Positions 7,873 to 63,695 of a stretch of 64,000 bases of DNA are shown here, one piece after another. How positions within the stretch are numbered: the stretch's first letter is position 1; the number at the start of each line of letters is the position of its first letter. Origin of the DNA: Sipunculus nudus (taxonomy: Eukaryota; Annelida; Sipuncula; Golfingiida; Sipunculidae); NCBI GenBank assembly GCA_026874595.1, contig CM049316.1, forward strand, positions 56,985,676 to 57,049,675. Direction: 5' to 3'. The notes under the pieces are model-generated. The model did not search any database. It saw only the letters and a list, made by a program, of their open reading frames with translations, and was not told where the DNA came from. The translations under genes were made by a program, and so were the position numbers.

Positions 7873-7902
7873 TCATCTCAATGGACAATTCGTTTTGACA
7901 AA
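7873..7902 (-). CDS. RNF31-like: Gene 1 terminal exon (10 codons with stop)
   Basis: A good acceptor (pyrimidine tract ending TTTTACAG) is followed by FVKTNCPLR and a stop. Phase 0 matches the donor at 9537. The equivalent exon of gene 2 (29498-29469) reads YVKQNFPLQ and stop, with the same length and the pattern xVKxNxPLx. This supports a real, conserved micro-terminal exon. Confidence 0.75.
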   Translation of the reverse strand, partial: FVKTNCPLR

Positions 7903-9751
7903 CTGTAAAACAAAACGAAAGGCGATATTTTTATAACATGCATTATCCTAATCATGTTTTAATGAACAGTATCTTTAAGTTCCTTAAACCGACAAAATAT
8001 GCTGAGGGGAATTCAGGGAACGTCCCACTGATCATAACGCTCAATTGTTTGCCTTATTTTGTTCACACTTCGACAGGTGACTTGAGTGTATTATCTTAAA
8101 TTTTCTTGTATTTGTCGCCATGGACTGAGTGAGGCGAAACGGTTGTTACTGTATAACAGAAACTGCCATATGACCGTTAGAGTTAGGGTTCAATTAAGTA
8201 ACCTTAAACCCCACAGGAAGGACGCCCATCATAGTGCTTAGAAGCGTTGATTATCATGACCTGATTTCGGTTTTCTAGGTGATGTTTAGTACGACCTATC
8301 CAGATATACAGGTCGAACGGACTGACGACCGAACGAATTGCATGGCAAACGTACAAATGCTATAGCTCGGCATGACCCAATGTCAGTTCAATCATAAAAA
8401 ATAAATCTATACTTACCTTTTACTGAAGAAGATACAGATATGAACTACATATAAGCGCATTTAGTCAAACTTTTTATTAAGATTTAAACTAAGATACTCT
8501 CATTTCAAAATAAATATGTTTAAAATTAGAAGATTTGGCAATCGTAAAGCGACTGCCAGTTTCTACTAAGTCACTGGAGATATGGACTAAGTTTGGCATA
8601 GAATATCTCCTGACGTGTGAATCCTTGAACTTTCTGGCCTAAGAGATGAAATAGCAGCCAAATATATTGGCAATACCGCCGTTTGAATAGGTCATGTCTT
8701 GTGGTCCCTTCCTGTTGAAATACGGGGGGCACCTAAGGTCATGTTAAATGGTAAATGGGAACCAGGATCAAGGAAAATGGAATACGCGTGTTGTTTACCT
8801 AAAATAGAATGGGCAATACACACAAAAAATGGTTTTAGGTAGCACCATCAGTCTTGCGTGCAAGATAAAACTATCAAAGGTTATTGACAAGCAACATTTC
8901 AGGTCAACACATCGAACCACTGCTGAGACATGTGGATGGATGGAGGCCTTATAAAAAGCAATTACAGGTGCCGATTTTGGACGAATTAAAACTTTCCTAG
9001 ATCTTTGGCCATATAAAATTTCTGGCCAATTCAATTGAAGGTGGCGACACTATTCTGGTATAAATTTCGAAGATGTATTGACAAGCAATATTTCAGACTG
9101 ATACGTCAAACAATGGGATATATGCATATGTGTGCTACAAAAAAACGACTTTTGGTGGCGCCAACAGGCTTGTGAACCAAAACCTTCACCTTCATCCTTA
9201 ACAGACACACGGGTAAAGGATACACGAAAACAACCCTAAATGACGCTCCCGGTCATGTGTAGGAGAAAACTATCCAAGACGTATGCATATGCAATATTTG
9301 AGGACGATACAACTCTTGAGAGGTGTGCGACATTCATTTAAACAGACATATGGACAGACGCTCCCAACAGTCAAGAGGTCCTACCGAATCGGCGAGGCAC
9401 CAGTCCCCCCTTGATGATGACAAGTTTCGGAAAATAGCGTCCAGCGGTTTCAGAGTTCTTAGAAAGCTACAGCTATAGCAAATCACTGAGCATTACCACA
9501 GTAAACGTGATTAGGGATCAGATAAAGTATATATACCTGTTGAAGATCATGTCGATTAGTTGAGTTGATCTGAAGGCCAAGCTCTCTTCGAATGACGGCT
9601 CTTAGTTGCTGTGGATCCATAATGTCAGCTGGGTCCACATTATGTTTGTTGATAATGCTGATAATGTATTCCTTGTACGGTTTGCTGTGGAGATTCAGGG
9701 ATTTGGAAATTTTAGTGCAGGGGTGTATTCCGATAAAAAGATGAACACTGA

Positions 9752-9788
<37 letters not shown>

Positions 9789-12700
9789 CAATATAGATAA
9801 ATGTCATACCGGATATATATTTCATTTATAAATCAAATAAATTATAAATATGGGCGATTTCCCATGTCGTGTTAAATCATGTAACCTTATTTAAGATGGG
9901 AACTATTGTTTTTAAATGTTTTTATATTTCATTACCGCAGCAGCGAAGAAACTATTTTACTTGATCTAAAACATTTACATATTGTTCCGTTACAAAGCAA
10001 AGTGAAGCAACAAACCAAAGCCATATCATGTCGTTGCTTGTATTTTCCCTAGCAACCACTTTAGTTTCACAACAACGCCGCCTTGCCTCCTCGTTTACCC
10101 ATTCAGCGTAATCCTTGTAACGCAACCTTCGTTTCTTTTTAAGTAAATGCAAAACATGAACATAATTTAAATCAAATGTAATTTTGATACACTAATCGCA
10201 TGAATTTCAGCGTTCTCTAATCATAAGGATTTCATTTGGTAAAGAAGATTTTATTTAAGAAAAGACATGGCTACTGATGAGTTACAAGGCTACAGTTACG
10301 CACTTTATTTCAGAGTACCGTATTTAAATATAAATCATCGTTCATATAAATCTGACAGCTCAGGACAAAACTATTTTCTATCATTCTGCATGCTCAATGA
10401 AACACTGCACGACCATCACGCTGAGCAAGTGTAACACGGTGTTTGTGTGTCTGGATAAAGCATAAAATATGATGGTCTAAGGAAAACAAACGGTTCCTAA
10501 GCTAACAAGAGCCAACGCTGTTATAGTGCTTCCGGTTAGTCTAAAAACATCGAACAAGTGTGCAAAAATTACAGAGTGCATCATACTTTAATTTCAAGTG
10601 GCACATGGGCCATGACGCTCAGCAGAATTTGACATACAGGCGATCCATGTGATAATTATTGATGTTATGAGCTGGTAAAAAAAATAATTGAGAAGTAACT
10701 TGAACAAAAGATAGAGTGACTTATAGAATAGTCAAAGTCATGCTTTTTGTCCCTAGGCCTCAGAAAATAGTATACAACGACCTTTTTTTAATGTTTCCAT
10801 GAAGATTTTACCAGGAACTCCTTAGCTGCTAGGTTTCTATGTCCAGCTGCTGCGATTTGTGTCCATCTAACTAATAGGGTGCAAAATGCTCACAGAAAAT
10901 AGGTCACATTGGTCGTATACAGGGTTTCTAAGAAGATTTTACAGGCTCTCTCTGGATCTTTATTAAATTGGAAATTTCTGGGTCCAACTGCTTGGCATCG
11001 TGCCCTTAATTCTGACCAATAGGCTAAAAGCATATACTTTCACAGCAACCAGAATATATTTACAGGTTTACAAGGAATTTTTACAAGGACCTCCCTTGGT
11101 CTTAATCAAATTAGAAGTTTCCATATCCAACTAACAAATTGTGGAAATTTGACATATAGGGTGCTAAAATCATGTTCTTCCACATATCTTGCAGAATATA
11201 GGCCACAATGACTTTATTTCGATTGTCAAAGGAGACATAACAATGACCTCCATTTGCAATAAGTAAGCTTTTCTGGTTTCAACATTTACAATATAGACCA
11301 TGTCTGAATTTCTGGTGCTCAAAATTATCGTCGTAGCTGTCAGAATATAGGCCATCATGAGCTAATCTGAGGTGTTGAAGGAGATATGCCAAAAACCCCC
11401 TTGAATTAAAAATTAGCAGGTTCTTTTTTTAACGGTTATGATTTGTGCCCATCTGACCTTCACAGTAGTGAAATCATGTTTTATTTCCTATAGCTCACAG
11501 AAAATGGGATCACAGTGACCTAATTTGATCAGGATTCAAAAGACACTTGCCAAGGACTTCTCTCGATGATATGTTAGAAGACTCCAAGGCTAATTTATAC
11601 CATGTCTTGGCGCAGAAAATCAAAAAAACTTTTGGGCCAGTAGCTTATCACCATGACCTAACTCCAGGTTTCCAAGGAGATCTACTTAGGACCTCTCCAG
11701 ATGTGCAGTTTGATGTATCTAGATCTAACGGTTACGATTTGTGCCCTGTTAAAGGTCGGACCACCTGAAGCCAGGACGGCCGGACGGATGACGGACAAAG
11801 CGTGATCGTTAAAGCGCAACTAACTTACAGTCAGCGGAGCTAAAAAAAAAAAGCTAAGAGAAACATGCATAGCAAAATTTCAAGACATTCTGTGCATTGA
11901 TTAGTCTGAAACTGTTGCTTACATGGGAAGTTGTAACTAAACGGATTGATTGGAGCGATATTTCAGAACTGTCAGGTCATAGTCATGAAGAAACATTTAA
12001 CAAAATCATGATGACATTTTCTGGAATGACAGAAATACTTTGTTTTTTTGTTACTTACAGTTTGTTGATCTAAGGTAAAAATGCGCTTTGTTAATAATTT
12101 GATATGAATGAGTCTAGTCACAAAATGAGCACATCAAGTTAAAGGGTCCTCCTGAAACCAAAGCTGCGAAAGATGCATGATTTCTGTAATCAGACAGTCA
12201 CAAAACGCACATAATTATGAGTGATATACGAAATTAAAATACAGCTGACACCACCAGTCACCACCAGCTCTGTAAGCTGTCCATAATCAATATCCAAAAC
12301 TGTCGCGTACACAGGAAACATGCACGATTCCTGTAATACGAAAGGCTTAAAAAAACAAGAAAGTTGCGTTAAAACTTAAACTTATGTCTTCACCATTTTT
12401 GTTCAACTATTTAGGCATGCCTTGCAGTTTCAGTATAATACTTGAACCCAAAGCTGAAGAACACAATAACTGCAATTTGTCAGGGAAATAAGTACAGCTG
12501 ACACCAGTCTTGTTCAAACTAATTATTTATGATCAATAAGCATAAGTTTCAGTTTCAGTGCAATTTATCAGGTCTTGAAGGAAAACAAATATGAATGCCA
12601 AATCAGAAAAAATACGCATGGCGCCACTCGTCTTAATAACAATCATAATTACTGGAATTTTGTGTGAAAACTTATTTAAAAGACTTTACAAACTTTCTGA

Positions 12701-15700
12701 CAGATAGGTCAATTTTGCCAGATGGATCAAATGTAGAATGCTGACAGGGCTGTATATGTACATAAGTCAGATTTTTTTTATGAATTAAGTGAATGTTATT
12801 TATTGTTTGACTGCTTTTGCCATATAGCTTGCAGAATATGGGTCACGGTGACTAAATTTTGGAGATTTTACTACGACCTGTCTGGATATTGGTCAAGAAC
12901 ATTCTACGTTCTTGTGGTTCTTTTGGTTCCGAATTACGCCCTGCTAACGGATGATCTGCCGGACAGAAGGCCGACGGACAAAAACCCATCACTACCATTC
13001 ATAATTGTATAATCCAAATATTATTTGACATTCACATTAATATCGCGCAATGAAATAGTCTGATGCTTTACAAAATATACTTGCATACAACAGGGTTTTT
13101 AAGTTGCGTGTGTCAAAGGTTCGCAGGTAGAAAACACAGTCCCTCGGATGATGACAGTGAGGAACTCTGGGGCAGTTTTTAGTTCTTGTACAGTTCTTCA
13201 AAGAGAGGAAGAAGGATATTGTATAAGGAGATCATCTATTGCAGAATTAAAAAAAAAAGAATTTAAATGTTACTTGTATTACCTGTGGATAATACATTTT
13301 AAATATCATTTCTTTTTGTCCTTGACGCAGGTTAAGATTGCTTTAAAACAACAATTCTTTATTCAAGATTTTCATCGTTGGTGATATTTCCATCCAGTAA
13401 AGTACCGTGCATTTGTTATATACCTGTTCATATGGCCTATTACAACCATCACAGAAAACGTGTCCACATATAGCACACTTTCTTTCTTCTAAACGACCGA
13501 GATTGGGTAGACAGGCAGACTCGCACTTCGGACAACCTTGAAATATAAAACACGCAATAGTTGGTGTTGGTTTAACGGGACACATGACGCGGCTGCACTA
13601 CAAATATGCGCAAACACACTACCACAAATAGCATATTCGCCAGAATCGCGATAAACTAGTCTAAATTTCTTTTTAAACTTAAAATACTTTGTAAATACTA
13701 TTAAATCTGCGTTTAACACTATGAGAAATAGTGACCTTTTAAGAGTTGAAAGGACTCTAAGTATCATTAATATAAATTTTGTATCAAACAACACCATGGC
13801 AGATGTAAAATAAAGGCACGTACGGGCTTTTTCCTTGGGAAAATAATTGCCGACATCAATGTGTAACAAACTGGCCTTGGCCTATAAAAGAAGTATGAAA
13901 TGTTTAGTTGATGTAAAAAATTCAAATATAAATGTAATTTAAAACACGTGACTCACCGGAAAAGACAATCACAATATCATGTTGAAAACTGATATAAAAT
14001 ATATTAATGCTATATGCAATTGTATTGTTTACGTTAGTATTACATTTTAATTAACATAGTCCTCCAAGTCTGTATTCGAACAGTAAATGAGGCACTTTTG
14101 TTGCAAAAATCAGTGAACCCATGTTTCCATATGACCGAAGAAAGGTTATCAATAATGCAATTCTGACTACGTGCTTTGTATTATGAATATCAAGGTATCT
14201 GCACAGCTTTCATGATACCCTGACCATTGGTTGCTTCTTTCACCACATGCTAGTGAAGTAAATAATTTGCTGTAGACATTATCAATATATCCTAAATTAT
14301 CAACTAGATATGGGTCTCCGTCTGTCCTATTATATATAAAAGTTTTGCGCGACTGTAGATAAATTGGTATCCATCTTATAAAAATGCATTTATTTCTGAT
14401 GCGATTTGTTGCCCAAAGATTCTACGCTCTATGCAAAATACAGGACTGCATGCAGCTTTAACGATTATGAATCGTGCCCTGTTACTGGGCGTTCGGACGG
14501 ATGAAGACTATGAAAACTATAGATATAGTTTGCAGTCAGCTCAGTTGCAATACCATTAACATTGTAATACCTCCTCATTTATCTTCGAATCCTGATCAGC
14601 AGGTGGTTGGTGATCCATGGGTTCCTGCTGGACTGTTGTAGCTGTAATCGGGGCTGTTTTACCGTTTGGAGGCAATTTATCATCTTTGGGTTCGGATGAA
14701 TACACGTCTTCTACCAGTGATGTATAACACATCTCGCATATGTTCGTTGTAGAAGGATTCAAAAACGTACACTCTGCACATTGCCTTTCATCGTGTAGCC
14801 CTTCAGCTTCCTTTATACCCTGAAAAGCATTATAAAAACAACATACAAAGGATCCAGTAAACACGTTATTCTGACGTACATGTATATTTGCAAGCTGTCA
14901 TTAATTCACAATACTATACCGTAATGAAAATTGTTTAAAGGGTATAATGAATAAATGTCTGGCATCAATGATGCGATTGTATCTCCAGGCCTTGGAAAGA
15001 CGCCTTTCATATAGGCTTCCATGAAGCATAGCAATGATATACTAAATTTCATAACTGCCCATCCATTACAATTATCCCCATACACTGTCTTAGGTAAAAT
15101 TAAATATTTAAAAAAAGGAGTCTTGTAGGAGTCTTGGTCAAGAGATAAATGTATCATTTATTAATGCAACATCAAATATCTGCCATTCTCGAGAATGGTT
15201 TGACTTTCTCCACCTATACTTTGTGAAATGCGCAATAAGATCCTTGAGTCATTGTAAATTTTCAGCAGACCAAATTTCCAATAAATCCATATCACTGTCC
15301 AGAGAAAACTGATCTTTAACATGATTTTACTAAAATGAGCAAGCATTTGGTCACGATCAAACTCCTAGTCAAGTTCACGAGCCAAATATAAATATGCTCT
15401 GAAACCTGATACCTAGAAATATGCAAAATAAAAAAAAATCAAGAAAATAATCCTAGCTCTAAAATATAAACTTATGAGATAACGATAGAAGACGCTAGGA
15501 GTGCATGGTGACAGGGAAAGATTTAGAAATGCCTGAGATACCGATAGAATACAACACTAAATTTCAAGATAACCCATCAAACCAAGTTGATGCAAATACG
15601 TTGCAAGGTCGGTCTAATGGTAAAGGTGCGGCGGCCGTGCCAAGTTACTAACGATTCCTTTGCTTACAAAGAATTGTGGATATATGTTGAAATTAGATTC

Positions 15701-17793
15701 AGCTTTACCTCTGAAAATGTGGCAACTGGTTCGTCATTTACCGTATCTCGAGCAACTGTGTCAGCTTCTTCCTCCTTTTAAAATTATAGAGATTTTGGGT
15801 AGGAGCACTTGAGTAAAGTATATCAATAGAAAATCTGAAACATCAATTATGTATGTTCACGAACATAATAATTCATTATTATAAATAAGTAAATGCCACG
15901 GACAATAAATCAAATAATATTAAACATTTGGTGGTTGTTGTTGTTTTGCAAAATAAAATAGCTGAAGACAAGAGCCTAAATAATCTAAGTGTATTATGTT
16001 AGGGCCCATCTGTGTTCTGTAGTTTTAGGTGTCAAATTATATGACTCTAAAATATATTATAGATTAGTATGGCAATTGCGTGTGCACAATCTGTTAAGAC
16101 ATCAACTTGGTCATTCAAAATCCATGTATTAAAGGCTTCTTTTTAAATTTCCATGATCTTTAAATTGAGAATATATATAGATTGGATTTCTCAGGCAACC
16201 TATATTTTATTAAATATGTTAAAAATGGCAACTGAAACACTTTTGCTTAGCCTTGAAAGTTATATAAAATGGCTAATATACGGACTTTGAAGTCCTTGTC
16301 TTCACCCTTGGTTCCATTTTTCAAGGTCTTACAACACATGGTACAGACTGTGACATCAGTAGAATTAATATATGTACAAAATTGACAAGCATTCTGGGTT
16401 GTCATTGCCATCGAAGGTACCTGTAACACATTAATTCAGAAATATGAAGTAAAATTTATTAGAGTTTTATTGATAGTTGTTATATAGCCGATTTCTGTTT
16501 GATATGTATTTTATGATGAAAGAAAAGTATTTCAAAGTATTCTTAAATTTACTGGTTCAGATGTGATTGTTTAACTTTGGTTAGTATTTTTATCGTCTCG
16601 GTATGTGAAAAATTTTAATTAAAGTTGAAAAATAACAACACCTCTGATTCATTACTTAATATTAAAGGCACGGGTTAATTGGCCATGTATATTTTAAAAC
16701 TGCTAATATTCACCTTCAGTTCAACTCGATTGTTCATTTCAAAATGAAGCGGCTCCGCACAAGATATGCACAGTTCTGCATCAGACATATTTATAAACTG
16801 ACAAAGATGGCATCTCATTTCTGTCCCTGGAAACACCTCATGTATTGTTTCCTTCAAAGAAAAGATTTCTTCATTAGGTTTAACCCCCCATTGGATATTA
16901 ACAAAATTATTCCTGTATCAACACGTGACACAAGGATCATAGCGCTCAGCTGACGACCATGCAGAGGCCAAAATCTATGGAGATCTTCATTTCTGAAAGA
17001 AAGAGCACGCAACAAAAGTGACTTTTGTCATGCAAACACTTTTTGCTAAAAGGTCGGAAATTTCATCAATCACAAACGTGTTTGAACCGTATTAACGAAG
17101 ATATTTGGTAAAGATAGTTTAAACCTTGGTAAACTCTGTTTCCGCCTTACAGAAAGACGTGTGTAAAAATATGGTAACACCACTAGTCTTCAGCAATGGA
17201 TAAATTTAAAAGATAAAATTTAACTGTTATGCAAATAAACATAGTATGTCCATTAAACATTTTTATGAGGATTATAAAAGAAATAGACTGATGGTAATAT
17301 TTCATTGATTACACTGTACATTTGTACCAAAATGTACGCACATTATCACATAAAAAAACTAATTGACTCAGTGAGCGATACGTGATCAGGCTCATGTGTT
17401 CGGGACAAAATTTGGTGAAGATCCATCCAGCCACAGATGAGCACTACAGTTTCAAGTAATCAGGAGAAATCGATGATTATCAAGGTATGTTATCGTGTGA
17501 ACATGTACACTATTTCTACATGTTCACCCCCTCTGTTCAGTGTTGGTTATCGGAAACGAAAGCCTGTGCATTCAGCTCTAGCTCTGAAAAAGCTACAAAC
17601 CGACCACTCATTGCATGCTACACGCCAGCTAAAATACAGCCTTCTCAAGAGACAAGATTTAGCATTATACAACCAATATTGTCAGTTGTTGCCTTGACTC
17701 TTAGTTAATATAGCTCATGATTAATGGAAAAATAGATTGAATTTATCTCTTAACCTACCGGTATGTAATTTCAGACTTTTAAACTTGGATACG

Positions 17794-24402: not shown

Positions 24403-25867
24403 CTAGAATACGGGTAGCCGACAAGTGACTATGTGTATCTGCCAAAATCAGAATGGAACGGGTGAAATGAGGCATGGGTTGAGTGGCAAGGGGAAATAGA
24501 GTGAGGTATGTTGCATATTAGCATGAATGTCTGCAGCCCAAATGTGTATGTAGGTTCTGCCGCCTACCACAAATCCAGAAAGCTGTCCAAGTTGTATATA
24601 TATGCGAAATTTTAGGCAGAAAAGTCAAACCACTACATGTACATGAGTGATTTTAGCCCACGGCAGACAAACAGACAGACACTGTGCAAAAATGGTTGCA
24701 GGTGGCCCCTCCAGTTTTGTTTATGAAAAAGACCTATGTGAGATCTAAACACATGCACATTTTTTTCCCAATCGGTCAAATGGTTCCTGGGATATGAGCT
24801 TGGATGTGTGCAGCGTTAACTAGAATTTAGGTGGCGCCACCTGTCATAAAATCAAGAAAGCTGTCCAGGATGTATAAACCTGCAAAATTTTAGGCAGTTA
24901 TGTCAAACCACTACAGAGAAATGAGTGATTTTAGGCCACGGCAGACAAACAGACAGACGCTGTGCAAAATGTGCAAAAATGGTTGCAGGTGGCCCCTCCA
25001 GTTTTATGTATGATAAAGACCTATGTGAGATCTATACACATGCAAAATTTTGGCCCAATCGGTCAAACGGTTCCCGAGATAAGAGCTTGGATGTCTGCAG
25101 CGTAAACTATAATGTAGGTGGCACCACCTATCATAAAATCAAGAAAAAGCTATCCAGGATGTATAGAACTGCAAAATTCTAGGCAGATATGTCAAACCAC
25201 TGCCGAGATATGAGTGACATTGTCCCACGGCAAACAAACAGATGGACATTGTGCAAAAATGGTTGCAGGTGGCGCCACCAGTTTTGCGTATGATAAAGAG
25301 CTATGTGAGATCTATACACATGCAAAATTTTGGCCCAATCGGTCAAAAGGTTCCCGAGATAAGAGCTTGGATGTCATCAGCGTGAACGTGAATGTAGGTG
25401 GCGCCACCTGTCATAAAATCAAGAAAGCTATCCAGGATGCATACGCATGCCGAATTTCAGGTGAATTAGTCAATTCACTGCAGAGATATGAGTGATTTTA
25501 ACCAAAGGCAGATGAACAGATGGACACTGTGCAAAAATGGTTTCAGGTGGCGCCACCATTTTTATGTATGTTATAAAGCTATCCAAGGGGCAACTTTGTA
25601 TAAATTTTATTTCCTGATCGGTCAAACGGTTCCCGAGATATGAGGGTTTATGTGTGGAAACAGACGCACAAATGGACGCTGGGAGAGGAAAGGTCAGAGG
25701 TCAACACAAATTGGTTAGGCACCAGTTCACATGTGACCCAATAATTGGAGTAAGTTTAGGAAAATCAGTCTATTAGTCTCAGAGGAGTTCTCTGGAAACG
25801 AACGCGGCGGCGGCGGTGGAACCCGGTCAAAAACATAGTATCCGCAAAACTTCATTTTGGCGGATAC
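24403..25867 (-). mobile_element. Helitron/Helentron-like element, copy 2 (inverted)
   Basis: Read on the minus strand, the 3' end has a stem-loop (TAGTCACTTGTCGGCTA), then CCCGTATTCTAG and a T flank. The 5' end lies at a GTATCCGC..GGCGGATAC hairpin near 25840-25867, next to a (CGG)n stretch. Inside are about ten ~150-bp half units with GGTGGCGCCACC or variants and phrases such as TCAAACGGTTCCCGAGATA. The flanks are again the 336-bp repeat unit, at the same internal position as copy 1, so both copies descend from one insertion. Confidence 0.7.
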
Positions 25868-29498: not shown

Positions 29499-32400
29499 CT
29501 GAAACAGAAAATTGACATGATAAACACACACTATATATACCACCTGTAGTATCAATTGTGTTTCGAATTAAATAAAACACTCCATTCCTTGAAAATAAAA
29601 TGTAAAAGGTAAAACATTTTGAATGTTCTAGTCTCCAGTAGGTAATCGTCTGTGATATTTCGAGGGTCGCGACCAAATTCTCTCCGGAGAATTGCTTTCA
29701 GTTGCTCAATGGGCATTACATGTGCTGGATCTAATCCGTTTGCCCTGATGATCTTATTAAGATATTCAGTGCAAGGATGGCTAAAATTAAAAATTAGCAA
29801 AACAGTAACAAAAATGTTTCTGCAGATGGAATGGCATCTTAAAAAATAATTTAATTCCAGAAAAACTACAAAAGTCTTAAAAATACAATTGCAAGTGTAC
29901 CATGATCAGAAGATAAGACATTAATGTCCTTACCAAAGTTTAGTTTCTACCCAAACTTTATCTTCCAATTCCTGCTGGCTACAGCCACGCATCTCAGCTT
30001 CCTTTTTCCAACCAATCCACGTATCCCAAATATTCTACATCTTGAGCATTATCCCACTGATCGGGAATAAATTAATCATTTACCTAATTTCATATCACAG
30101 AGCTTGAGTTTCCTGAAAGCATAGTTATATTAAGAATACTAATATTGAAGCAATCTGTAAATATGACATCTATAATATGCAATGAAATTAAATTTATTAT
30201 ACAAAAAATTCAGTAACACATCTAACTCTATGCTCTAACCAAAATTAGCCGGCAATGGAAACCGAGAACGATCATCATTTTTATGACGTCTGTCACATAA
30301 AGGTAGTAAGCTACATAGCATATTAACTTCTATTCTTTCTTCTTTGGTGTAAATGATATGAAATTCTAATACTTACTTTTAGGAATGCCCTCATTTTCAA
30401 ACGAGGGCACTGTCTCACATAGAAGATACGGTCACGTGGATGATGACAGTGGGGTTCCCTGGAACATTCAGCCGTTCTAGTGCATCTCTGTAATATAATT
30501 TACTCTGTTATTATAAGTACCAACACAATGGTACTAAAACAGTATTGAGGACGTAATGTTACTATTGTAAACAATCGTGATATGATAGGATGTATTATTA
30601 GATGTTAATCGTTTTCACCTGTAAGAAAGGTCCTTTACATCCATCACAGAACTGGAATGAGCAGTTGAAGCACTTCCGCTGGGAGAAGGCCCCAAGTTTT
30701 ATGTAACATACACCACTGCACTTTGGACAGTCTTATTTTAAGACTAGATGTGTCGGAACGACACGAATGCCCCCGCCTGGGGCAAATAAGAAACATTTGT
30801 TAAATTTTGTAAAAATTTTTAAGTTCAGGAGGTGTTGTATGGTCAAAAGAAGGTCAATAAGGGCAAAATGCAAACTCGATCTGTAAAGGGTCCTTATCAA
30901 GCAACACACCAAAAATCAAGCCAGTATCTGCAGGCATTGTGAAAAAAGTCCATATATGTGCATTTTTCATAAAATTTTCTGTCTTTCGTGAAATTTTCTA
31001 TGTTCAGGATCTGTCATATGGTGAAAAATAGGTTAACTGGGACGAAACGCGAACTCAATCTGTAAGGGGTCATTATGCGCCCACAGACCAAACATTAGGC
31101 CAGTATCTGTAAGCATTGCATTGCGAAACTAGAATATTAGCAAAAGTTGGTAATCATTTATAAATTTAAATTGGAGAGGTATATACCATGTTTCATAACA
31201 ATCCACCAAATGCTTCCTGAGAAATAAGCTCCTTAGTTATTTTCTATACTAAGCTCTGTGACCTTGAAAAGTAGGTCAAGATCACCCATCTTTGAACTTG
31301 ACCAAGATTTTGTAAATATAATGCAATAGCACTGAAGAAATGAAGTTCCTGTGTTGAATACCTTTGGAGATATCCTGTACAAAAGGCCAAAATTGAAAAA
31401 ATCCGATAAAATTTCATTAAAAATTCAGAAATTGCAGGTGGCGCCACCAAAATTGTGCAGCACATACAGACCATCAGTCCCAATGATTCTAGTAAGTTTT
31501 GTGAAAATCCACAGAATGGTTCCTGAGATCTAAACTTCTGAGTGTTTTTCTATAATCAGCTCTAAAATGTAGAAAAATGGGTCAAGGTCACCCATCTTCG
31601 AACTTGACCGAGATTTTATCGATATACATCCTTACTGATGAAATAAAATTCCAACGGTGAATCCTTTTAGAGATATCCCGCTCACAAGGTAAAAGTTAAC
31701 AGACGCGGAACGGACGGACGGACAGACACCGGACAGACAGATGGACGGACGGACAGACGGACAGCTTGGGTGACGACAATAGCCCATAAGCCTATGAGCT
31801 GAGGGCTAAAAACGGCTGTACATGTGTATTTGTCATGAAGATTTCTATTTTTCATGAATTTTTCTAAGTTTAGGAGCCGTAAAACGCTCAAAAGTAGGTC
31901 AACCGGGACGAAACGCAAACTCGATCTGTAACTGGTCATTATCTGCCCACACACCACAAATCAGGCCAATATCTGCAGGCATTGCGAAAAAAAGTCCGTA
32001 CATGTGTATTTGTCATGAAAATTTCTATTTTTCATGAAATTTTCTAAGTTTAGGAGCCGTAAAACGGTCAAAAGTAGGTCAACCGGGACAAACGCGAACT
32101 CGATCTGTAACTGGTCATTATCTGCCTACACACCAAAAATCAGGCCAATATCTGCAGGCATTGCGAAAAAAGTCCGTACATGTGTATTTGTCATGAAAAT
32201 TTCTATTTTTCATGTAATTTTCTAATTTTAGGAGCCGTAAAACGGTCAAAAGTAGGTCAACCGGGACGAAACGCAAACTCGATCTGTAACTGGTCATTAT
32301 CTGCCCACACACTAAAAATCAGGCCAATATCTGCAGGCATTGCGAAAAAAAATTCCGTACAACTGTTTGATTTCGGAATGACGGAATGACGGAACGACGG

Positions 32401-49841: not shown

Positions 49842-52062
49842 CATAGAAATGTTATTTATGCATTTTATAAAATTATACACCTCTCTATTGTAAAAGAAAT
49901 TAAAAAGTTTTATATCCTTAAGTATAAATAAGCTTTCTCTTGCAATTTATTTGCATAATTCAGGTAAGTTCACCATTATTTCCTCCCAGTACAAGATCAG
50001 TCCAACAAATACCCAATCCCCTAAGGTTCATATGAACCATGGTTACACTATATAATTCACATTTAATTATTAATTTCACACAATGTTCAACAGAAAATTT
50101 AGTAAATATAACTTCATGTTAATGTGTTAAACAATAATGCAATGTATAGCCTATATGCCTACTGACCAAGCCTTGTTAATAGATCTGCAAACAAGCCAAG
50201 GGTTTATAATCACATTTCCAATCTTATAAACCACATCAAGCCAATTCCTGGTGTCCCATGGATAATGACAACATCTAGCATGAACTAATCACACAGTAAC
50301 TTTAGCCTTTTCCTGTCTATCATTATAATCAATCAAGGCTTCATCCCTAATGTTTTAGTCAAAGGTTGTAATAGTTAATGTAATAGCTATTATTTTGGTA
50401 CTTGGGGTTCTGTAACTATTACTTTGAAACCTGTAATTTTATATTATATATAATATATATATATTTATTTATGGTGAGGGATGATGGATCATAGTTAAAG
50501 CTGAGACTATTAACATTCAGCTAACATAAAAAAAAGGTAGAAAATATTGACACTTTCAATTTGTTTTAATATTTTAAGGTGTCTTGGGAGCCATCGATGG
50601 GTGCCATATAACATTAAAATTCCAGCATCTCATCAACACGAATATCTAAACAGAAAGATCGGGCACAGTGTGGTTCTACAGGCTGTGTGTGACTATGGTC
50701 GACGGTTTCTTCATTGTTTCTGTGGATTTCCAGGAAGTTGTCACGACACCAGAGTTCTTTATAATTCTTCTCTATTCAAGAACATTGATACTGATTTTGC
50801 TTCTCATTTCCTTTCTTCAGCATATCACTTAGTTGGTGACTCTGGTTATCCACTTTTAAATTGGTTGATGGTTCCTTTCAGAGACAACGGCAATTTAACT
50901 GATACACAGATTCGTTCTAATAAGAAACTTTCACAGACAACGATTGTTATTGAATGTTCATTTGCTTTACTTAAAGGGAGATTTAGAAGACTGAAATATG
51001 TAGATGCTAGACTTGATTCCATTCCTTCTTTAGTTATAGCCAGTTGTGTTCTCCACAATATTTGCCTAGATGAAGGAGATGACGAAGATTATTTCCTTGG
51101 TAGTGATAATTATGATTTCCTAAGTGATCTATTATCATCTGGTTCTGACACAGGTGACAATCAAGCAAATGTCAAACGAAACTACATAGCAGCTTTAATA
51201 TAAAGCTGGATACATTGGGAATAGTCAGTGAACAACAAATGTTTAACCTTGAAGTGTCTTATGTTGACTACTCATCCGGCAACATTAAAAGATGTTACCA
51301 GTCATTAAAATAAGCCAGGAATAGTACATGAATAGTAAAATAAATGTCCATTGCATCTTATGAACATAAACTGTTGAAATGTTAATAGTTATTTACAGTT
51401 GATTTGTTGGAATATAATTCAGTGCATTTATTCTTCTTTGTTATACCTCAACCTTTTTTACTGATGACAAAATGATTGCAAGAAAAATGTCACATAAGGA
51501 AATATGGTCACAATTTTTGTGGGGAATTAAGTCACACAAAAAGTCATATTCTTCGATAGGAAATAGTAATCGATTTGGGTAAAAAATTTAGTTACTTAGC
51601 TAAAGTCACATCTTCGGGTTTTATCATTAATAAGGATATATTATGCTCCAGATTGAAAGCATGCAGGTACACCTCAGCTGGGGCCTTATCAGTGTTACTG
51701 TTGACTTGCTCCAGACCCACATATTCTAAATAAACATTTTTGGACTTTCCAATATCTATTTTAACCTATTAATGACAAAATTACCAATTACTATTATTAT
51801 TATATATTACATATACCCCATGTCTGATAATAGGTAATAATAAACAATACCAAGATCAATTGGTAGGCCAATATCCAAGTGAACACATTGAACCACGCCT
51901 AGGAATACAAGATGGAGGTATACAAATTATGTGGACATTTGAAATTTCAAGTTAATATTAATACATTTAAATTTCATTTATATTGCCATTTTTCAAAATG
52001 GCTTTGATCAATTCTTTTTGCACACTTATTCTCTCTTTGTGCATTTCTTTCATTTCAGCCAA

Positions 52063-52591
52063 CTAACATTTTTGCAGTTCTAGTTGTTCATGATGTTTTT
52101 TATCTGTAATATCTATCAACTTATTAAAAGTTGTTGTTAGTTCCTCATGTCTTTGTTTGTTTTCTTCCATCATTTTGTTTATGGTATCCATAATGGTATT
52201 TTGTTTTTTTTATTCTTTTACTGGGCTGGAGAGGTTCAGCCTCAGGCACCTCAGGGGAGGAGAGGCTGTCAGTGATGCTTGTGGATGGCTCCACAGTATC
52301 AATGACAGCCACAGGAGTTACTGCATGGTTATCATGCGGTAACTCCTGCATCATATCAAAATACTCTGGTTTCTCTCTCCTTCCCCTACCTGACAATTTT
52401 GAGTACTGGACATAGTCCTTGTAGGACCGTTCCAAGTTCCTGAACTTCTGGCTGCACTGAGCACCCCCTTTATCAGTTAACACAAACCCCATTCCCATTA
52501 ATTCTTCCGCTACCATATCCCACACCTTACATTTCCTTGTAACTTTATCATGAAGCATTGCAAAATATTTCTCCTTCATTAATATTAACAA
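52063..52591 (-). pseudogene. Harbinger Myb/SANT-like DNA-binding protein, frameshifted
   Basis: The frame from 52591 reads MLILMKEKYFAMLHDK, then KCKVWDMVAEELMGMG, CSQKFRNLERSYKDYV and an acidic tail. This is a trihelix/Myb-SANT domain (W..VA..L...G......QC..K...L...YK), the second protein of PIF/Harbinger elements, which brings the transposase to DNA. In-frame codons (DQEATKNLL) continue upstream to about 52625. An A-rich run near 52203 shifts the frame: in one frame the protein ends at 52145; in the other a coiled-coil tail (MDTINKMMEENKQRHEELTT) continues to a stop at 52063, the usual C-terminal form. It converges with the transposase. Confidence 0.8.
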
Positions 52592-52841
52592 ATTTTTTGT
52601 AGCTTCTTGATCACCCAGCCTGCCAATGTTACTGCCTCCTTTACAATGTTATGTCAGTAAATAGACCTGTGTCAAAGTGTACCATAATTTTTACCTGCTT
52701 TATAATATAAAAAAATAATATAAGGATAGGATAAATATGAAGTTTTATTAATAGTTAAATCTAGTTATGTAATCAATAATGTTCAAGGTAAAATCAAATT
52801 TTTTGTCCACAGATAAGACTCCAGTATGGTCTGGAAATAAA

Positions 52842-53811: not shown

Positions 53812-53815
<4 letters not shown>

Positions 53816-54801: not shown

Positions 54802-54874
54802 TATACCGTGGAATATATATTTGTTGAAGACAGCACATGCATTACAGGTACCTGAATTCTAACCACTCCCTAGA

Positions 54875-55505
54875 TATGAGTGATTTTATCCAACAGCAGA
54901 TAATTAGATGGACGCAGTGCAAAACTTGTTGCTGTTGGTGACACCAGTTTTGTGTATAACAAAGCGCTATGAAAGATCTAATAACATGCAAAATTTCAGG
55001 AAGATACATCAAATCAGTCCGGAGATATTAGCACGGAAGTCTGCAGCATAAACATAAATATAGGTGGCGCCACCTGTCATAACATCAAGAAAGCTATCCA
55101 GTACGTAAACGCATGCAACATTTCATGTGAATAAATCCCACCACTGCAGAGATATGAGTGAATTTTAACCAAGGCAGGCGACCAAATGGTCACCGTGCAA
55201 AGATGATTGCAGGAGCCGCCACCAGTTTTGTGTATGATAAAGAGCTATACCTATACACATGTCAAATTTCATGAAGACACTTTTAACCAGTCCGAAGAAA
55301 TTTGCAAAGTTGTCGGCAGCGTGCACGTAAGTATAGATGGCTCCACCTGTCATCAAATCAAGAAAGCTTTTTCAGGACGTATACGCATGAAAAATGTCAG
55401 GTGAATAAATCCAACCACTGCAGAGGTATGAGTGATTTTAACCCAAGGCAGACGAACAGATGGACGCTGATGGTTGCAGATGGCGCCACCAGTTTAGCTT
55501 AAGTA
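54875..55505. repeat. Fragment of the ~280-bp GGTGGCGCCACC units
   Basis: About two units with TATGAGTGATTTTA, GTCATAACATCAAGAAAGC and GGTGGCGCCACC (55064) or mutated forms, like the interior of the Helitron-like copies at 24.4 and 61.2 kb but without either end. Confidence 0.8.
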
Positions 55506-56130: not shown

Positions 56131-56636
56131 ACGTGTATAAACATACCAGCAAATTAACTTCAAATATACAGTAATCTCCTTTTTTTATAAATATATTTTA
56201 TTGCGGAAAAATTATACAATACACATTTTACACACAATTGTTCACAATTACATCAAATACAATATATACAAAGCACATCGCCTGGATATTATTCCAACTA
56301 TACTTTAAATTTTCAATCCATGTAATTTGCACATGCAGTATATACATTTATTCTAGTGGTCTTATCAGAATATATTTTCCCCTTGCTTTTTCTTTCAATA
56401 CTAAAACTACAATGCTACAGTATGTAAAACATACAGTAAAACTCCTTGGAAGGTTGAGATTTTCAAGTCAGTGGTAACACATGTATATATATCTCTCTCA
56501 CTCACCCATATATATTTATATTACATATAAAGGTTACAAACAGTTTACATAGTTTATATCCTTCTTGTTGCGTTTTCTGATGAAACAGAAATCTCCGTCA
56601 ATAACTCATTTTTATAATTCATGTCCTTTTCTACTG

Positions 56637-56637
<1 letters not shown>

Positions 56638-56705
<68 letters not shown>
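56638..56705. repeat. (AT)n microsatellite
   Basis: TA run, the longest in the window. Confidence 0.95.
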
Positions 56706-56709
<4 letters not shown>

Positions 56710-57831: not shown

Positions 57832-57979
57832 CTCGGATAGTGTGTCTCTGGTCTCATATGATTCTATATCGCTGTCCAAATTTTGCTCAATTATCCTGAC
57901 GAGACGATACTTGTCCATTATCTCAGCTGGATCTAACCTAAATCTTTTAATTTTCTCAATGAGGTAATCCTTATAGGCA
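57832..57979 (-). CDS. RNF31-like: Gene 3 exon: LDD C-terminal helices
   Basis: 148 nt, the same length as in gene 1 (acceptor TTCATTCTCACAG, donor TCCGAG|GTAAGC). After one base that completes a codon it reads AYKDYLIEKIKRFR, LDPAEIMDKYRL. It has the YK(D/E)YL...LDPA core of the HOIP LDD. Confidence 0.85.
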
Positions 57980-60900
57980 CTGTGAGAATGAAGCATCTAA
58001 TTGATTATGGCGCAGGATTGGAAGAAAACATAAAAAAAATACCGTTCAAGAACCTTCAACTTAGATAATTTTTCGTCAATTAAAGAAAATATGATTTATC
58101 GCCAGATACGCCGGATGGTAAACCAAATGCCCTTAATATGTAGGAGGCACTTCTTTTTTTATCACAGTAAACAACTAAGCACTAAGCAACAGTAAATAAA
58201 AGACTCATTTTATCGGCAGTACCTAAATTCCTACTAGGGAACTAACAAAGGACACATGGGTCACGTGGCTCAGCTGAACTTTAGAAAATTTTAGCAAATG
58301 CAATATGTACTTATTTCTTTTGTCAAGTTTACAAATTTACCCATTTGCAATATGACATAACGGAATATATAAGTAGATTTACAATTCTATAATGCATTCA
58401 CATTTATTACTTATTTGGTCAGATAACATCACATTATGCATACAGATGTATTTGCTTTTTAAGACAACAAATTGATAAATTTGCAAAACAAATATCTGAA
58501 AATAAAATTTGATTTATAATTCACAATCTTATATTGCACTACTATTTATCCATAATTTGGCTCATATATTATAAAACTATGCATATTGATTTGTTTAATT
58601 ATATTTTGATTTCCTAAAATTATTTAAAAGAAAATTAATTTCTTTTACAAAGCTACATTACCACATGGTATCTTCTGGATTACTAACTGAATTACTATTT
58701 TAATATAAGTTTTGTATATTGGAGTGGAAACAGCAATACAATTACGGAATTACAGTTCAAACAATAACAATTACTGCATAACAATTGTTCGGTGGGTGGG
58801 AATGAGAATGACTGTTCACCTGCCACAGCGGGGGATCTCCCCCAGCTACCCATGAAAAATCAGGTACCCTGGCACAGCTGGCCTCCAGTGACCAGAAGTG
58901 GGCTGGCTGGAGTTTCATAATGCCAGTGAATACGATAGGAACCTCAAAAAAAAATCAAGAACTAGCCTTATTTTCGAGCTTTTATTTTAAAATTTGAGAT
59001 TTTAAGAGATGAAATCGTTATGAGTATATGCTGTGAAAATTTATATCAAAAGTACTTATAGGAAAAATCATATCTGTGTAAAAATATTCTCTAGCTTCAA
59101 CAATTCTCATGTGAGCAAATATCTTTCCTGATTTTTTTATTAAAGGCATTATGTTTGGGCACATAACTTCAAGAAATAACACAATACTGCCATAACTTTT
59201 GGTATGTACAAAGGAAATATGTAGAGGAATAGTTATTTAAAATATGACTAATATCGGGCAGTTGTTTTGATATTATGCAGTCTTCAAGTGTAACAATTAG
59301 TTTTTAATGGAAAATTGATGTTTTTCCTTTATACCTCGAAGGCACCTGGTTGAAGTGACCCAATTTTTGGCATGGTTGGAGATTTTGGGGACATATAACT
59401 GTATGTCAAACTTTGGATTCGTAGGTAACGGTTTTCAAACGTGACGTCCGGAGGGATGGATGGTCGGACGGACCAACGAACAAAGGACCATGACTATAAA
59501 TTAATCCCAATATATGAAACACACTGACCGGAAATCAATTTCGCCAAAAACGCATTCTTATTCATATACATTCACGTGAAAATATGGGTGTGTGGCACAC
59601 TGTGATATTTTCATATTCAATTAAATCAACTTGAAAAACCTGCTACAAAATCGCCTGTTAAATGCCTGTCGGACAGGATGTAGCATGACACATATTGGCT
59701 GAATGTTCGATGTTTCTGGAAGCAGCTTACCCGAAAGAAGAGTTAGGGCTTTCTTAGACCACGCACTATAACTCTCAAACGGGCAAAAGTTTTCCTTTCA
59801 TGAAGCAAAGAAAATAATAGTCCTTGTTTTTCTAAACCACAGTTACTTTCAGAAAGACATTGTCTGTCCCAGTGTTTATATCAATCAACTACAACTCATA
59901 AAACGTTTCATGATAAAATTAACAATAAAAGTTATGTTTAATATTTTATCATTCAAGGCAACCTCAGGCGTTTGAGCTTTACATAACAGCTGGTCACCAA
60001 CAGGAGGTAAGATACGTGGAAAGTATGTTTGGATTATTACTAGAAAGACATTATGTTGAATGAATGCGATTGGTTCTTGTTGATCCGAAAGGAGATGTCA
60101 GTATAATACGTTATTCAGTCTGAAGATGCTTACTTGCAGTAGGCGTTGTAGATTATCCTCAGGCAATATGCGAAGAAAGAACCTGCAAATTCTTGAATGG
60201 TGACAGTGATGAAGCCAAGGACACGTTTTCCTGTGAGATGATTTTTTCTGTATCTTATCACATACACAGAGAAACCTTTAGAATGAGTCGCAAAAAGAGA
60301 TATATCTCCCCTCATCTTGGATCCCCAATCTACAAATTTTAGAAGAAAAATATGCACTCTTCCGAAATTATGGTGCTAGCAGAAATGATAAATTTCCATG
60401 TATATGAACTCAAAGTTAGAAGGACCAAACCCCTTTATTTTTCAAACCCTCCCAGCACCTGGCTGAAACACCAGGGCGTATCAAATGGGAGAAGAAAATA
60501 TGCAGTACTTCAAAACATACGGGGCTCACAAAAAAACATGATTTCTGAGGTTTTGACCTTGAAGATGAAGGTCATCGTCACCAGATTTTGAACTTGTTTA
60601 AGCTTTTGGATGAAACATCTGACCTATCGAATTTCGATGAAACATTCTGAGTAGTTCAAAAGGTAAATTATAATTTTTTTCAACACTCTAACTTGGTTTA
60701 AACAACAAGAGTATCGAATTTGAGGAGAAAATATGCAATTCTGCAAGAGTTATGGGGTGCGCAATATCTTTATTTCGGCTTATTTGACCTTGAAGATGAA
60801 GGTCAAGGTCACCAGTTTCCGAACTCCTACGAATTATTGACAGAAACAAATGAAATCTCAAATTTCATTCGAAATATTGGGTGGTTAAATAGTCTCCGAG

Positions 60901-63695
60901 TTAACAAGAAATGACAACAAACGACGAAAACACCAGATGTCTTCCATCATGGGAGAGCGACAAAAGTAAACCACATGTGCGAAAATATTGTTCTGTTTTA
61001 TCTCTCATTTTACAATTTTACAAACGTTTTTGAACCCTTACCTTAAGGTAGGGGTTTTTGCAATCTGTGCAATACTGTTTGTCACACGAAGAACATTTCA
61101 GTCTGTCTTCATATACAGTGTCATCGTGCAAAGGACCATGGCACGGTGGATCGCCTTTTAAACTAGAATACGGGTAGTCGACAAGCGACTACGTGTATCC
61201 GCCAAAATCAGAGAAGGACGGGTGAAGTAAGGCATGGATTGAGTGGCAAGGGGATATAGAGTTACATGTGTTAAATAATAGAATGGATCTCTGCCACATA
61301 AACATGATTGTAGGTGGCGCCACCTGTTATTTGAACGAGAAACTATCCAAGATATATACACAAGCAAAATTTCATGTGGAAAAGTCAAACCACTGCAGAG
61401 ATATGAGTGATTTTATCCCACAGCAGAAAAACAGATGGACGCTGTGCAAAAATGGCTGCAGGTGGCGCCACCATTTTTGTGTATGTTATAAAGCTATCCA
61501 AGGGCTACATTTGTGTAAAAAAATTTCCTGATTGGTTCAATTAGTCCGGAGATATAAGCATGGATGTGTACAGCATGAACGTGAATGTAGGTGGTGCCAC
61601 CTGTCATAAAATCAAGAAAGCTATGCAGGATGTATAAGCATGCTGAATTTCAGGTAATTTAGTCAAACCACTGCAGAGATATGAGTGATTTTAACCAAAG
61701 GCAGACAAACAGATGGACGCTGTGGAAAAATGGCTGCAGGTGGCGCCACCATTTTTGTGTATGTTATAAAGCTATCCAAGGGCTACATTTGTGTTAATTG
61801 TTTTTCCTGATTGGTCAAACGGTTCCCGAGATATAAGCTTGGATGTCTGCAGCGTTAACGTGAATGTAGGTGGCGCCACCTGTCATAAAATCAAGAAAGC
61901 TATCCAGGATGTACACGCATGCCGAATTTTAGGTGAATTGGTCAAACCACTGCAGAGATATGAGTGATTTTAACCCCAGGCAGATGAACAAATGGACACT
62001 GTGCAAACATGGTTGCAGGTGGCGCCACCTTTTGTTGTGTATGTTATAAAGCTACCCCAGGGCTACATTTGTGTAAAAAATGTTTCCGGATCGGTCAAAC
62101 AGTTCCCGAGATATATGGGTTCATGTGTGAAGCGTTAACGTGGATGTAGGTGGCGCCACCTGTCATAAAATCGAGAAAGCTATCTAGGATGTATACGCAT
62201 GCCGAATTTTAGGTGAATTAGTCAAACCACTGCAGAGATATGAGTAATTTTAACCTCAGGCAGATGAACAGATAACACTGTGCAAACATGGTTGCAGGTG
62301 GCGCCACCTTTTGTTGTGTATTTAATAAAGCTATCCCAGGGCTACATTTGTGTAAAAAATTTTTTCCGGATCGGTCAAACGGTTCCAGAGATATATGGGT
62401 TTATGTGTGAAGCATTAACGTGAATGTAGGTGGCGCCACCTGTCATAAAAAATCGAGAAAGCTATCTAGGATGTATACGCATGCCAAATTTTAGGTGAAT
62501 TAGTCAAACCACTGCAGAGATACGAGTGATTTTAACCCCAGGCAGATGAACAGATGGACACTGTGCAAACATGGTTGCAGGTGGCGCCACCTTTTGTTGT
62601 GTATGTTATAAAGCTATCCCAGGGCTACATTTGTGTAAAAAAATTTTTTCCGGATCGGTCAAACGGTTCCCGCGATATATGGGTTTATGTGTGGAAACAG
62701 ACGCACAAACGGACGTAGGGCAGAAACGAAAGGTCAGAGGTCAAGGTCACTTGGTTAGGCACCAGTTCACATGTGACCCAATAATTTGTGTAAGTTTCGG
62801 AAAAATCTGTCCAGTAGTCTCAGAGGAGTTCTACGGAAACGAACGCGGCGGCGGCGGCGGCGGCGGCGGAACACGGTCAAAAACATAGTATCCGCAAAAC
62901 TTCGTTTTGGCGGATACAATAAGAGGTATGAGAAACTGATCTATTTATATGCCAGTTGTGTGAACGTTTTCGCGGCAGATACTAGGTGCCTGACATTTAT
63001 CCACATTTTAATAACACAAAAAAGTATGGATATTTAACAAATCAAGCTTAGCCTGCCGAATATGTAATTGCTGTGGGGAAATAATGGAAAAAAAAAAAAC
63101 GATGATAATATAATCTATTAGAAAATGGAAAATCCTTCAGATTTAAGTATATTTACTTTAAAGTTTCATGAAAATATTAAAAAAATATCAACACACATTT
63201 ATAGTTTAAACTCAAATAAATATTTGAAAGGTATAATTACATAAAATTTTATTTTCATCTTCATAAATTTCTCTGAGACTGTCGTGATACTCCTGTTTCC
63301 AAAATATCTGAAAATCATATTCGCACAAAAGTATTTCAGGTGTTGATGTGGCTACTCTGTGAAAATGGCATCCTTAGCTTTTAAATCAAACAAAGTCAAT
63401 CCATAAAATATTTAAATAATCGTTTTCTTTAAATTACGCCTGCTTTGTATTTATTTAATATGGGTTAACATATGAGTAAATTAATGAAAGTATAAATCAA
63501 TCTCACTAGGTAATTTTAAAAGTAAACGTCAATTCTCCTTCACACTTGAAATATCAAGAATTGGCCCTTTTTCACTTACACCAGATTTGTCTGTCTGAAC
63601 GAAAGTCCTTTTTGCCCTACCATATTTCGGTAAAATTCCCTCAGCACGACCACCATAGGAGGCTAGCGGTAGTGGATTATGAGATGCACTAATAC
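57832..63695 (-). CDS. RNF31-like: Gene 3: HOIP/RNF31-like protein, partial (RING2-like - LDD)
   Basis: Exons on the minus strand: 63695-63580, 63307-63241, 61154-61042, 60247-60134 and 57979-57832. The first four join in phase. The order is linker, helix before RING2, RING2-like module, LDD start, (linker exon not found), LDD C-terminal helices. The helix exon (FWKQEYHDSLREIYEDEN) resembles the WKR...YL-EN segment that precedes RING2 in HOIP. The catalytic position is Glu and the first zinc cysteine is displaced. The NZF and any PUB exons would lie beyond 63.7 kb, partly outside the window. A Helitron-like element occupies most of the intron before RING2. Confidence 0.75.
58200..60100. other. 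Gene 3 intron, no exon recognised
   Basis: The counterpart of the LDD linker exon should be here but was not found. A repeat-start phrase (GGACACATGGGTCACGTGGC then TCAGCTGAA) lies at 58248-58275, and a GGACGGACC tail near 59466. Confidence 0.35.
60134..60247 (-). CDS. RNF31-like: Gene 3 exon: RING2 end / LDD start
   Basis: 114 nt, phase 0 (acceptor AAGATACAG, donor CTGCAA|GTAAGC). It reads KTCPWLHHCHHSRICRFFLR and ends DNLQRLLQ. It aligns with HHPRDC-FYLR...L-LLQ of HOIP. Pro-Arg-Asp is Ser-Arg-Ile here, and the first Cys of the CTRTKNC stretch of gene 1 is lost (SSHRKTC). Confidence 0.75.
60380..60830. repeat. Repeat with GAAGATGAAGGTCAAGGTCACC words
   Basis: Two diverged units (about 60470-60600 and 60715-60840) share AGAAAATATGCARTWCT and TTGACCTTGAAGATGAAGGT. 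Intronic in gene 3, non-coding. Confidence 0.6.
61042..61154 (-). CDS. RNF31-like: Gene 3 exon: RING2-like module, catalytic Cys replaced
   Basis: 113 nt. Joined to the exon before, it reads C-DPPC, then HGPLHDDTVYEDRLK, then CSSCDKQYCTDCKNPYLK. The 15-residue spacing to the second Cys pair is kept. The residue 11 after DPPC, catalytic Cys in HOIP, is Glu. The first pair is C-x3-C instead of C-x2-C. The acceptor TTTAAAAG lies 7 bp from a Helitron-like end. Confidence 0.75.
61163..62917 (-). mobile_element. Helitron/Helentron-like element, copy 3, with five ~280-bp units
   Basis: On the minus strand the 3' end is a perfect stem-loop GTAGTCGCTTGTCGACTAC, then CCGTATTCTAG and a T flank. The 5' end is the GTATCCGC..TTGGCGGATAC hairpin (62888-62917) next to a (CGG)n run (62845-62870). 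Inside, five ~280-bp units (near 61313, 61590, 61868, 62148, 62429), most with two GGTGGCGCCACC palindromes each, are highly similar, so this copy is younger or homogenised. No coding for Rep/Hel. It fills the intron before the RING2 exon of gene 3. Confidence 0.75.
63241..63307 (-). CDS. RNF31-like: Gene 3 exon: helix before RING2
   Basis: 67 nt (acceptor ATGATTTTCAG, donor TTTTAT|GTAATT), phase 0 in and 1 out, reading IFWKQEYHDSLREIYEDENK and IL, then a split Cys codon. It plays the part of the 58-nt exon of gene 1. Confidence 0.6.
63580..63695 (-). CDS. Gene 3 exon: linker, most upstream seen
   Basis: 116 nt with donor TCTGGT|GTAAGT (strong) and acceptor AGAATCTCAG. The frame reads ISASHNPLPLASYGGRAEG and ILPKYGRAKRTFVQTDKSG, with no zinc residues. 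It delivers phase 0 to 63307. It is probably the linker after the NZF region. Confidence 0.45.

Follow-up and report, generated by a model that had tools for sequence, protein, structure and literature searches.

Within the linear ubiquitin chain assembly complex (LUBAC), HOIP (RNF31) is described as the sole ligase capable of building linear ubiquitin chains (PMC5413910), and the locus described here raises the question of what HOIP-like genes encode once the parts needed for catalysis are gone. The locus lies in a 64,000-nucleotide stretch of the Sipunculus nudus genome, referred to as the window (contig CM049316.1, here C11, 56985676–57049675), in which an initial annotation had recognized a minus-strand array of three HOIP-derived genes (genes 1–3) without RING1 and IBR. 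Nucleotide positions are those of the window and Mb positions those of C11, unless a contig is named. The searches covered a genome of 1.43 Gb in 153 contigs, and counts from them are lower bounds. All three minus-strand exon sets were found, each with a RING2-type exon of 113 nt with AG and GT splice sites, but they do not make up a three-gene array: the window is only part of an array with at least 19 RING2-type exons, which on its sequence is a large family of HOIP-derived genes without the parts needed for catalysis. Besides this many times larger size, the initial annotation had missed the absence of the catalytic cysteine and of the UBA, the altered pocket in nine of ten PUB exons read and the different type of the middle LDD exon. 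We consider it fairly probable that the array represents an expanded family of pseudo-HOIPs, which would bind ubiquitin, synthesize no chains and modulate linear-ubiquitin signalling.

Ancestry and module losses

When spliced, seven exons of gene 1 form one frame of 275 residues ending in TGA. These are the third NZF exon (14571–14819), a 58-nt micro-exon (13824–13881), the 113-nt RING2-type exon with Leu at the position of the catalytic cysteine (13424–13536), the LDD1 exon (13085–13195), a 119-nt LDD-mid exon (10016–10134), the 148-nt LDD2 exon (9537–9684) and a terminal exon of nine codons plus TGA (7873–7902), which has an AG acceptor, is in frame with the LDD2 exon and is the predicted 10-codon exon with its stop included. 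The computed frame bears out the earlier proposal that the NZF exon joins the pre-RING2 exon in phase with no RING1 or IBR between them; the micro-exon before RING2 is in frame and matches similar short exons of two paralogues. The LDD1 exon carries the motif CHHPRDC and ends in a GC donor, as opposed to GT in the paralogues compared. The LDD-mid exon, delimited by splice sites and with similar exons in seven other array members, is of an array type that replaces the canonical one, for which a search with a hidden Markov model (HMM) gave no match within the window. Two further NZFs lie in open frames on the same strand, the second at 16250–16435 (splice end approximate) and the first at 16678–16917 (exon ends approximate), and PUB was not found in gene 1.

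Searching the PDB with the spliced gene 1 product gave six distinct sequences at E ≤ 0.01, all of them RNF31/HOIP (best 1.2e-15), and the HOIP C-terminal domain (PF18091) scored 27.6 bits in it, above the cut-off of 23; the Pfam matches of single exons stayed below the curated cut-offs. The three PUB exons of gene 2 matched HOIP PUB structures best (2.6e-8), followed by SPATA2 (0.0026). Genes 1 and 2 are, by these matches, derived from HOIP, as the initial annotation had proposed.

The missing modules were sought with a canonical query made up of RING1, IBR, RING2 and LDD of the gene at 66.4 Mb, which returned at least 77 genome matches at E ≤ 1. Among the matches listed, those to its RING1 and IBR parts fell only at 16.6, 18.7, 18.93–19.18 and 66.4 Mb and at C16 27.57 Mb, and none in the array, where the query matched LDD parts alone, a few matches extending into the final RING2 residues. 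The reported loss of both modules is thus upheld by the genome-wide search, and RING1 or IBR concealed in introns was rejected since no array match was found at E ≤ 1. UBA_HOIP (PF16678) gave at least eight matches in seven genes, with none at 56.3–57.4 Mb among the matches listed. Across the NZF-to-RING2 interval of eight array members and the gene at 57.385 Mb, the NZF and RING2 exons are common and little else is, the micro-exon being the one other shared piece, read in three of the nine genes. In a local HMM scan of open reading frames (ORFs) of at least 15 residues, run on a subset of stretches, array hits were weak, with a best RING1 score of 11 bits and a best IBR score of 14 bits that came from the RING2 of gene 3 itself. 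An NZF exon at 56.308 Mb was suspected of carrying a UBA remnant, a candidate that was dropped when Pfam gave no UBA match (the control query began with 13 filler residues and was not a clean one).

The size of the family follows from the RING2-type exons, of which 19 were read over 1.08 Mb (56.31–57.39 Mb), three in the window and 16 outside it, and one more at 18.90 Mb; all 20 were verified on the DNA. A gene 1 query gave at least 92 genome matches at E ≤ 1, mostly at 56.31–57.39 Mb. PUB exons were found at ten array places beyond the duplicated set of gene 2, including 56.31 and 56.35 Mb, some sets being incomplete, and their presence at so many places makes PUB, NZFs, a dead RING2 and LDD the recurring architecture. 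Within the window, PUB is present in gene 2, while gene 1 has three NZFs and gene 2 has two, of which one is damaged; no NZF was found in gene 3. A stray LDD2 exon closely resembling that of gene 1 was seen 2 kb past the window end (C11 57051860–57052213), with no RING2 match close by among the matches listed.

The search for a full-length RNF31 elsewhere in the genome, suggested by the initial annotation, found full-length HOIP-like genes in at least four dispersed places (16.6, 18.7 and 66.4 Mb, and C16 27.55–27.59 Mb), and IBR was read in all four. OTULIN is present at C14 21.2 Mb. The seven genes of a second HOIP-like cluster at 18.93–19.19 Mb likewise show RING1 matches and have kept the catalytic cysteine; so many apparently active HOIP copies in one cluster are unusual in themselves.

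RING2-type exons without the catalytic cysteine

The RING2-type exons were assigned by both score and phase. With an HMM built from nine canonical RING2s, thirteen array exons scored 13.5–34.8 bits, and with an IBR HMM they scored −6.6 to 6.4 bits. Array exons start in phase 1, as do the canonical RING2 exons compared, whereas the canonical IBR exons compared start in phase 0. An IBR identity was rejected on these grounds, all 13 favouring RING2. The exons of gene 3 and of the 18.90-Mb gene have nearly equal scores with the two models, so that the RING2 argument there rests on position and phase.

The catalytic triad of HOIP consists of C885, H887 and Q895 (PMC3940038). At the C885 position, cysteine is absent from all 20 RING1-less exons: 12 of them have Phe there, gene 1 has Leu, the 57.385-Mb gene Lys and the 18.90-Mb gene Asp; five exons (gene 3 and those at 56.31, 56.36, 56.845 and 56.897 Mb) have no cysteine between the two zinc-ligand pairs. 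By contrast, all 11 relatives that have RING1 matched upstream on the same strand keep the catalytic RGGC; four of them are dispersed and seven lie in the 18.93–19.19-Mb cluster, where we infer that the upstream RING1 belongs to the same gene. In the RING1-less exons the catalytic loop RGGCxH is replaced, most often by CxxxLGxF(E/S)xR, and the main group has lost its counterpart of His887, which the 57.385-Mb gene keeps. In an alignment of 13 array exons, which leaves aside the exon at 57.203 Mb and the five of the gene 3 type, every exon has all six zinc-ligand cysteines.

The replacement loop brings in a cysteine seven residues upstream of the C885 position (+4 after CPxC), which was found in 15 of the 20 RING1-less exons, including those of the separately placed 57.385- and 18.90-Mb genes, and in none of the 11 canonical RING2s. 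This distribution is what would be expected had the enzyme been re-engineered, with the +4 cysteine taking over from C885, either as the nucleophile or as a metal ligand, in a reaction independent of E2 or performed in trans with a full-length partner. Such a substitution is highly improbable, given that RING1 is absent, that the main group has lost the His887 equivalent and that five of the 20 exons have no +4 cysteine.

Selection, decay and descent

Selection was assessed by pairwise Nei-Gojobori counts of nonsynonymous (pN) and synonymous (pS) differences, the pairs not being independent of one another. In RING2 and in LDD1, pN was below pS in 66 of 66 pairs each (12 sequences each), and in LDD2 in 54 of 55 pairs (11 sequences) once these were aligned on the DP motif, compared with 42 of 55 before alignment. 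In the 12 closest pairs listed, omega for RING2 and LDD1 together was 0.14–0.44. By these counts the RING2, LDD1 and LDD2 exons are under purifying selection.

Genes 2 and 3 depart from intact genes. In gene 2, again on the minus strand, PUB exons 1 (41229–41426; second copy 37877–38074), 2 (40612–40818, with Asp at the Asn102 position) and 3 (40223–40453; second copy 36881–37111) are followed by the first NZF (34134–34331), whose fourth cysteine is Tyr, the second NZF (33102–33377) with all four cysteines, the 113-nt RING2-type exon with Phe at the catalytic position (30619–30731), LDD1 (30377–30487), LDD-mid (29960–30056, 3′ end approximate) with a one-base frameshift in the assembly near 30005, and an LDD2 open frame (29555–29905). 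All three PUB exons lie in a 3.35-kb tandem duplication (34862–38207 and 38203–41559; 99.5% identical), which may either have arisen very recently or be an artefact of the assembly; in its first copy, at 34862–38207, a one-base deletion shifts the frame of PUB exon 2. Gene 3, on the minus strand as well, contains a 113-nt RING2-type exon with Asp for the first zinc-ligand cysteine (61042–61154), an LDD1 open frame with HHSRIC (60101–60277) and an LDD2 exon (57832–57979) of 148 nt, the length that had been noted for both gene 1 and gene 3. It is truncated at its 5′ end: homology to its NZF- and PUB-bearing relatives at 56.31 and 56.36 Mb begins at 63746, and neither NZF nor PUB was matched within the 30 kb read upstream. 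The idea of one exon chain repeated three times stands for the shared exons, and falls short in the truncation of gene 3 and the frameshifted LDD-mid of gene 2 as assembled.

These defects bear on whether the array consists largely of HOIP pseudogenes, partial tandem copies that lost exons and are decaying without function. The missing NZF and PUB of gene 3, the frameshifts and lost NZF cysteine of gene 2, a first CPxC pair that was not seen at 57.203 Mb and a PUB exon divided between two frames at 57.19 Mb would all fit that account. Set against it are the excess of pS over pN in nearly all RING2, LDD1 and LDD2 pairs, the six zinc-ligand cysteines retained throughout the aligned exons and the open frame of gene 1 across seven exons; even gene 3 differs from its relatives at 56.31 and 56.36 Mb by three nonsynonymous and five to six synonymous changes (over 164 and ∼43 sites, respectively). 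Wholesale decay is therefore unlikely. Gene 1 combines an open spliced frame with purifying selection, gene 2 falls short on its frame and gene 3 is truncated, and the defects of the latter two suggest that some members may be pseudogenes.

In a tree of 11 array and eight full-length rows (one full-length row short by one residue), the array formed one side of a branch with support of 99/100, or 99/97 with LDD alone. In a repeat with 17 array and eight full-length rows plus the 57.385- and 18.90-Mb genes, all pieces verified on the DNA, the array branch received 89/94 and appeared in 90% of 200 bootstrap trees. The alignments are short (79–116 columns), and 57.385, 18.90 and, in the 11-row tree, gene 3 have long branches.

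The 57.385-Mb gene groups with the full-length genes in the repeat tree (95/92) and has an LDD-mid exon of canonical type, detected at E 7.6e-6 with a five-sequence HMM and missed by a three-sequence one. Together with the retained His887 equivalent, this indicates that RING1 and IBR were probably lost a second, separate time in this gene. The RING1-less gene at 18.90 Mb adjoins the full-length cluster and branches between the two groups in the repeat tree, and since its first NZF resembles that of gene 1, it may mark the family's place of origin. It is possible, if unlikely, that pseudo-HOIPs have two or more separate origins in this genome and that each line came independently to one and the same RING2 replacement, losing UBA, RING1, IBR and C885 and gaining the +4 cysteine. 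This cysteine would lend the inactive RING2 a novel function in chemistry or structure, as nucleophile, redox switch or metal ligand. The family would then be a new kind of linear-ubiquitin effector and not a passive remnant.

A satellite of ∼337-nt units occupies window positions 1–3852 in 11 copies, with related inverted copies near 26–27 kb, and repeats of ∼280 nt, many with a GGTGGCGCCACC core, are common to 24570–25613, 54813–55469 and 61330–62734. Between genes 2 and 3, a DDE_Tnp_4 transposase ORF (50541–51203, plus strand) and a Myb/SANT-like ORF (52148–52648, minus strand) were found, which we take to be perhaps a Harbinger-like transposon pair.

Binding surfaces, proposed role and known systems

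The CT(F/Y) motif of NZFs binds ubiquitin, and the HHPRD residues of the LDD contact it. Among 17 NZFs compared, 15 have all four cysteines and 12 the CT(F/Y) motif. In the PUB domain, Asn102 is the cornerstone of binding to the PUB-interacting motif (PIM), and HOIP N102D weakened OTULIN antagonism of LUBAC-induced NF-kappaB activity in cells (PMC4017264). At this position ten array PUB exons have Asp (seven), Ser (two) or Asn (one, at 56.305 Mb), whereas Asn is kept in all three full-length genes read (16.6, 18.70 and 66.4 Mb). An additional PUB exon of a neighbouring gene at 18.7197 Mb, on the minus strand, has Asp there. A simple OTULIN sponge is weakened as a candidate role by the loss of Asn102 in nine of the ten. 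The earlier statement that ubiquitin-binding and LDD parts were kept holds for the NZFs and LDD, which are present, but not for the UBA, the LDD-mid, which is of another type, or the nine altered PUB pockets.

A mechanism can be proposed from these features. A HOIP gene would have lost its UBA, RING1 and IBR exons, so that the NZF exon splices via the micro-exon into RING2; the RING2 zinc-ligand pattern would have been kept in most copies while the catalytic loop was replaced, and the copies would have multiplied until RING2-type exons numbered 19 or more. The predicted proteins would carry PUB in some cases, NZFs in most, a dead RING2 and a reshaped LDD. With no RING1 there would be no known E2 docking, with no C885 no thioester at that site, and with no UBA no known HOIL-1L contact (PMC5413910). 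Zinc-finger scaffolding would remain, and the NZFs and the RING2-LDD surface are predicted to bind ubiquitin. The most likely role of pseudo-HOIPs would accordingly be that of competitors or scaffolds without catalytic activity, adjusting linear-ubiquitin signalling of the LUBAC/NF-kappaB type.

A different use of the same surfaces would be as pathogen decoys, HOIP mimics that titrate HOIP-directed effectors and leave LUBAC unblocked. A large tandem expansion with loss of catalysis would suit such a function, as would the many C1q genes in this genome (at least 93 C1q-domain matches at E ≤ 1e-6). No pathogen partner is known, the plausible targets, RING1 and most PUB pockets, are gone, and selection was gauged from pairwise counts, all of which makes pathogen decoys improbable.

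For the favoured reading, a pseudo-HOIP family in linear-ubiquitin signalling, several observations count as difficulties. Gene 3 is truncated, and gene 2 as assembled carries frameshifts (LDD-mid and one PUB copy) and a damaged NZF; the Asn102 losses speak against a mere sponge for OTULIN or SPATA2; of the 19 array LDD1 exons read, no more than 11 retain HHPRD, and ubiquitin binding by the reshaped LDD is putative; and the recurrent new cysteine hints at a RING2 role beyond passive binding. HOIP ancestry, the missing modules, the missing catalytic cysteine and purifying selection on the sequences compared are direct observations, and the catalytic parts lost together with zinc modules under selection indicate that the products are probably non-catalytic regulators or decoys. 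The genes are presumably expressed, with ubiquitin binding and a place in immune signalling that would follow from their domains, and we infer, in line with the initial annotation, a role as decoy or scaffold.

Compared with known systems, the array shares with HOIP the PUB domain, the NZFs, the zinc pattern of RING2, an LDD that in gene 1 contains CHHPRDC, and the C-terminal helices, and differs in that no UBA, RING1, IBR or catalytic cysteine was found, the middle LDD exon is another one and the PIM pocket is altered in nine of ten PUB exons. From RING-between-RING (RBR) E3 ligases in general it is set apart by the absence of any RING1 or IBR match in the array and by a catalytic cysteine in none of 20 exons. 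The full-length HOIP-like genes of the same genome share the RING2 exon phase and have alignable LDD1 and LDD2, but possess RING1 matches and RGGC, unlike the array. SHARPIN, compared by description, is likewise a non-catalytic NZF protein of the same pathway, as a LUBAC subunit, and differs in having a UBL and no RING2-LDD. The contact made by its UBL is described in PMC5413910. The expanded IAP families of bivalves (PMC7831173, PMC8917759) are a similarly large expansion within the ubiquitin system, in another protein family; among the matches listed, "RNF31" has no occurrence in these two papers. One putative HOIP gene is reported for the mollusc Aplysia (PMC9334734). Among the literature matches listed, none described a HOIP pseudo-enzyme family.

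The present family would provide naturally occurring variants in which ubiquitin binding is uncoupled from catalysis. Kinase signalling has been diversified by pseudokinases, and several full-length HOIPs accompanied by a large, conserved dead family would show that pseudo-enzymes diversify linear-ubiquitin signalling in a comparable manner.

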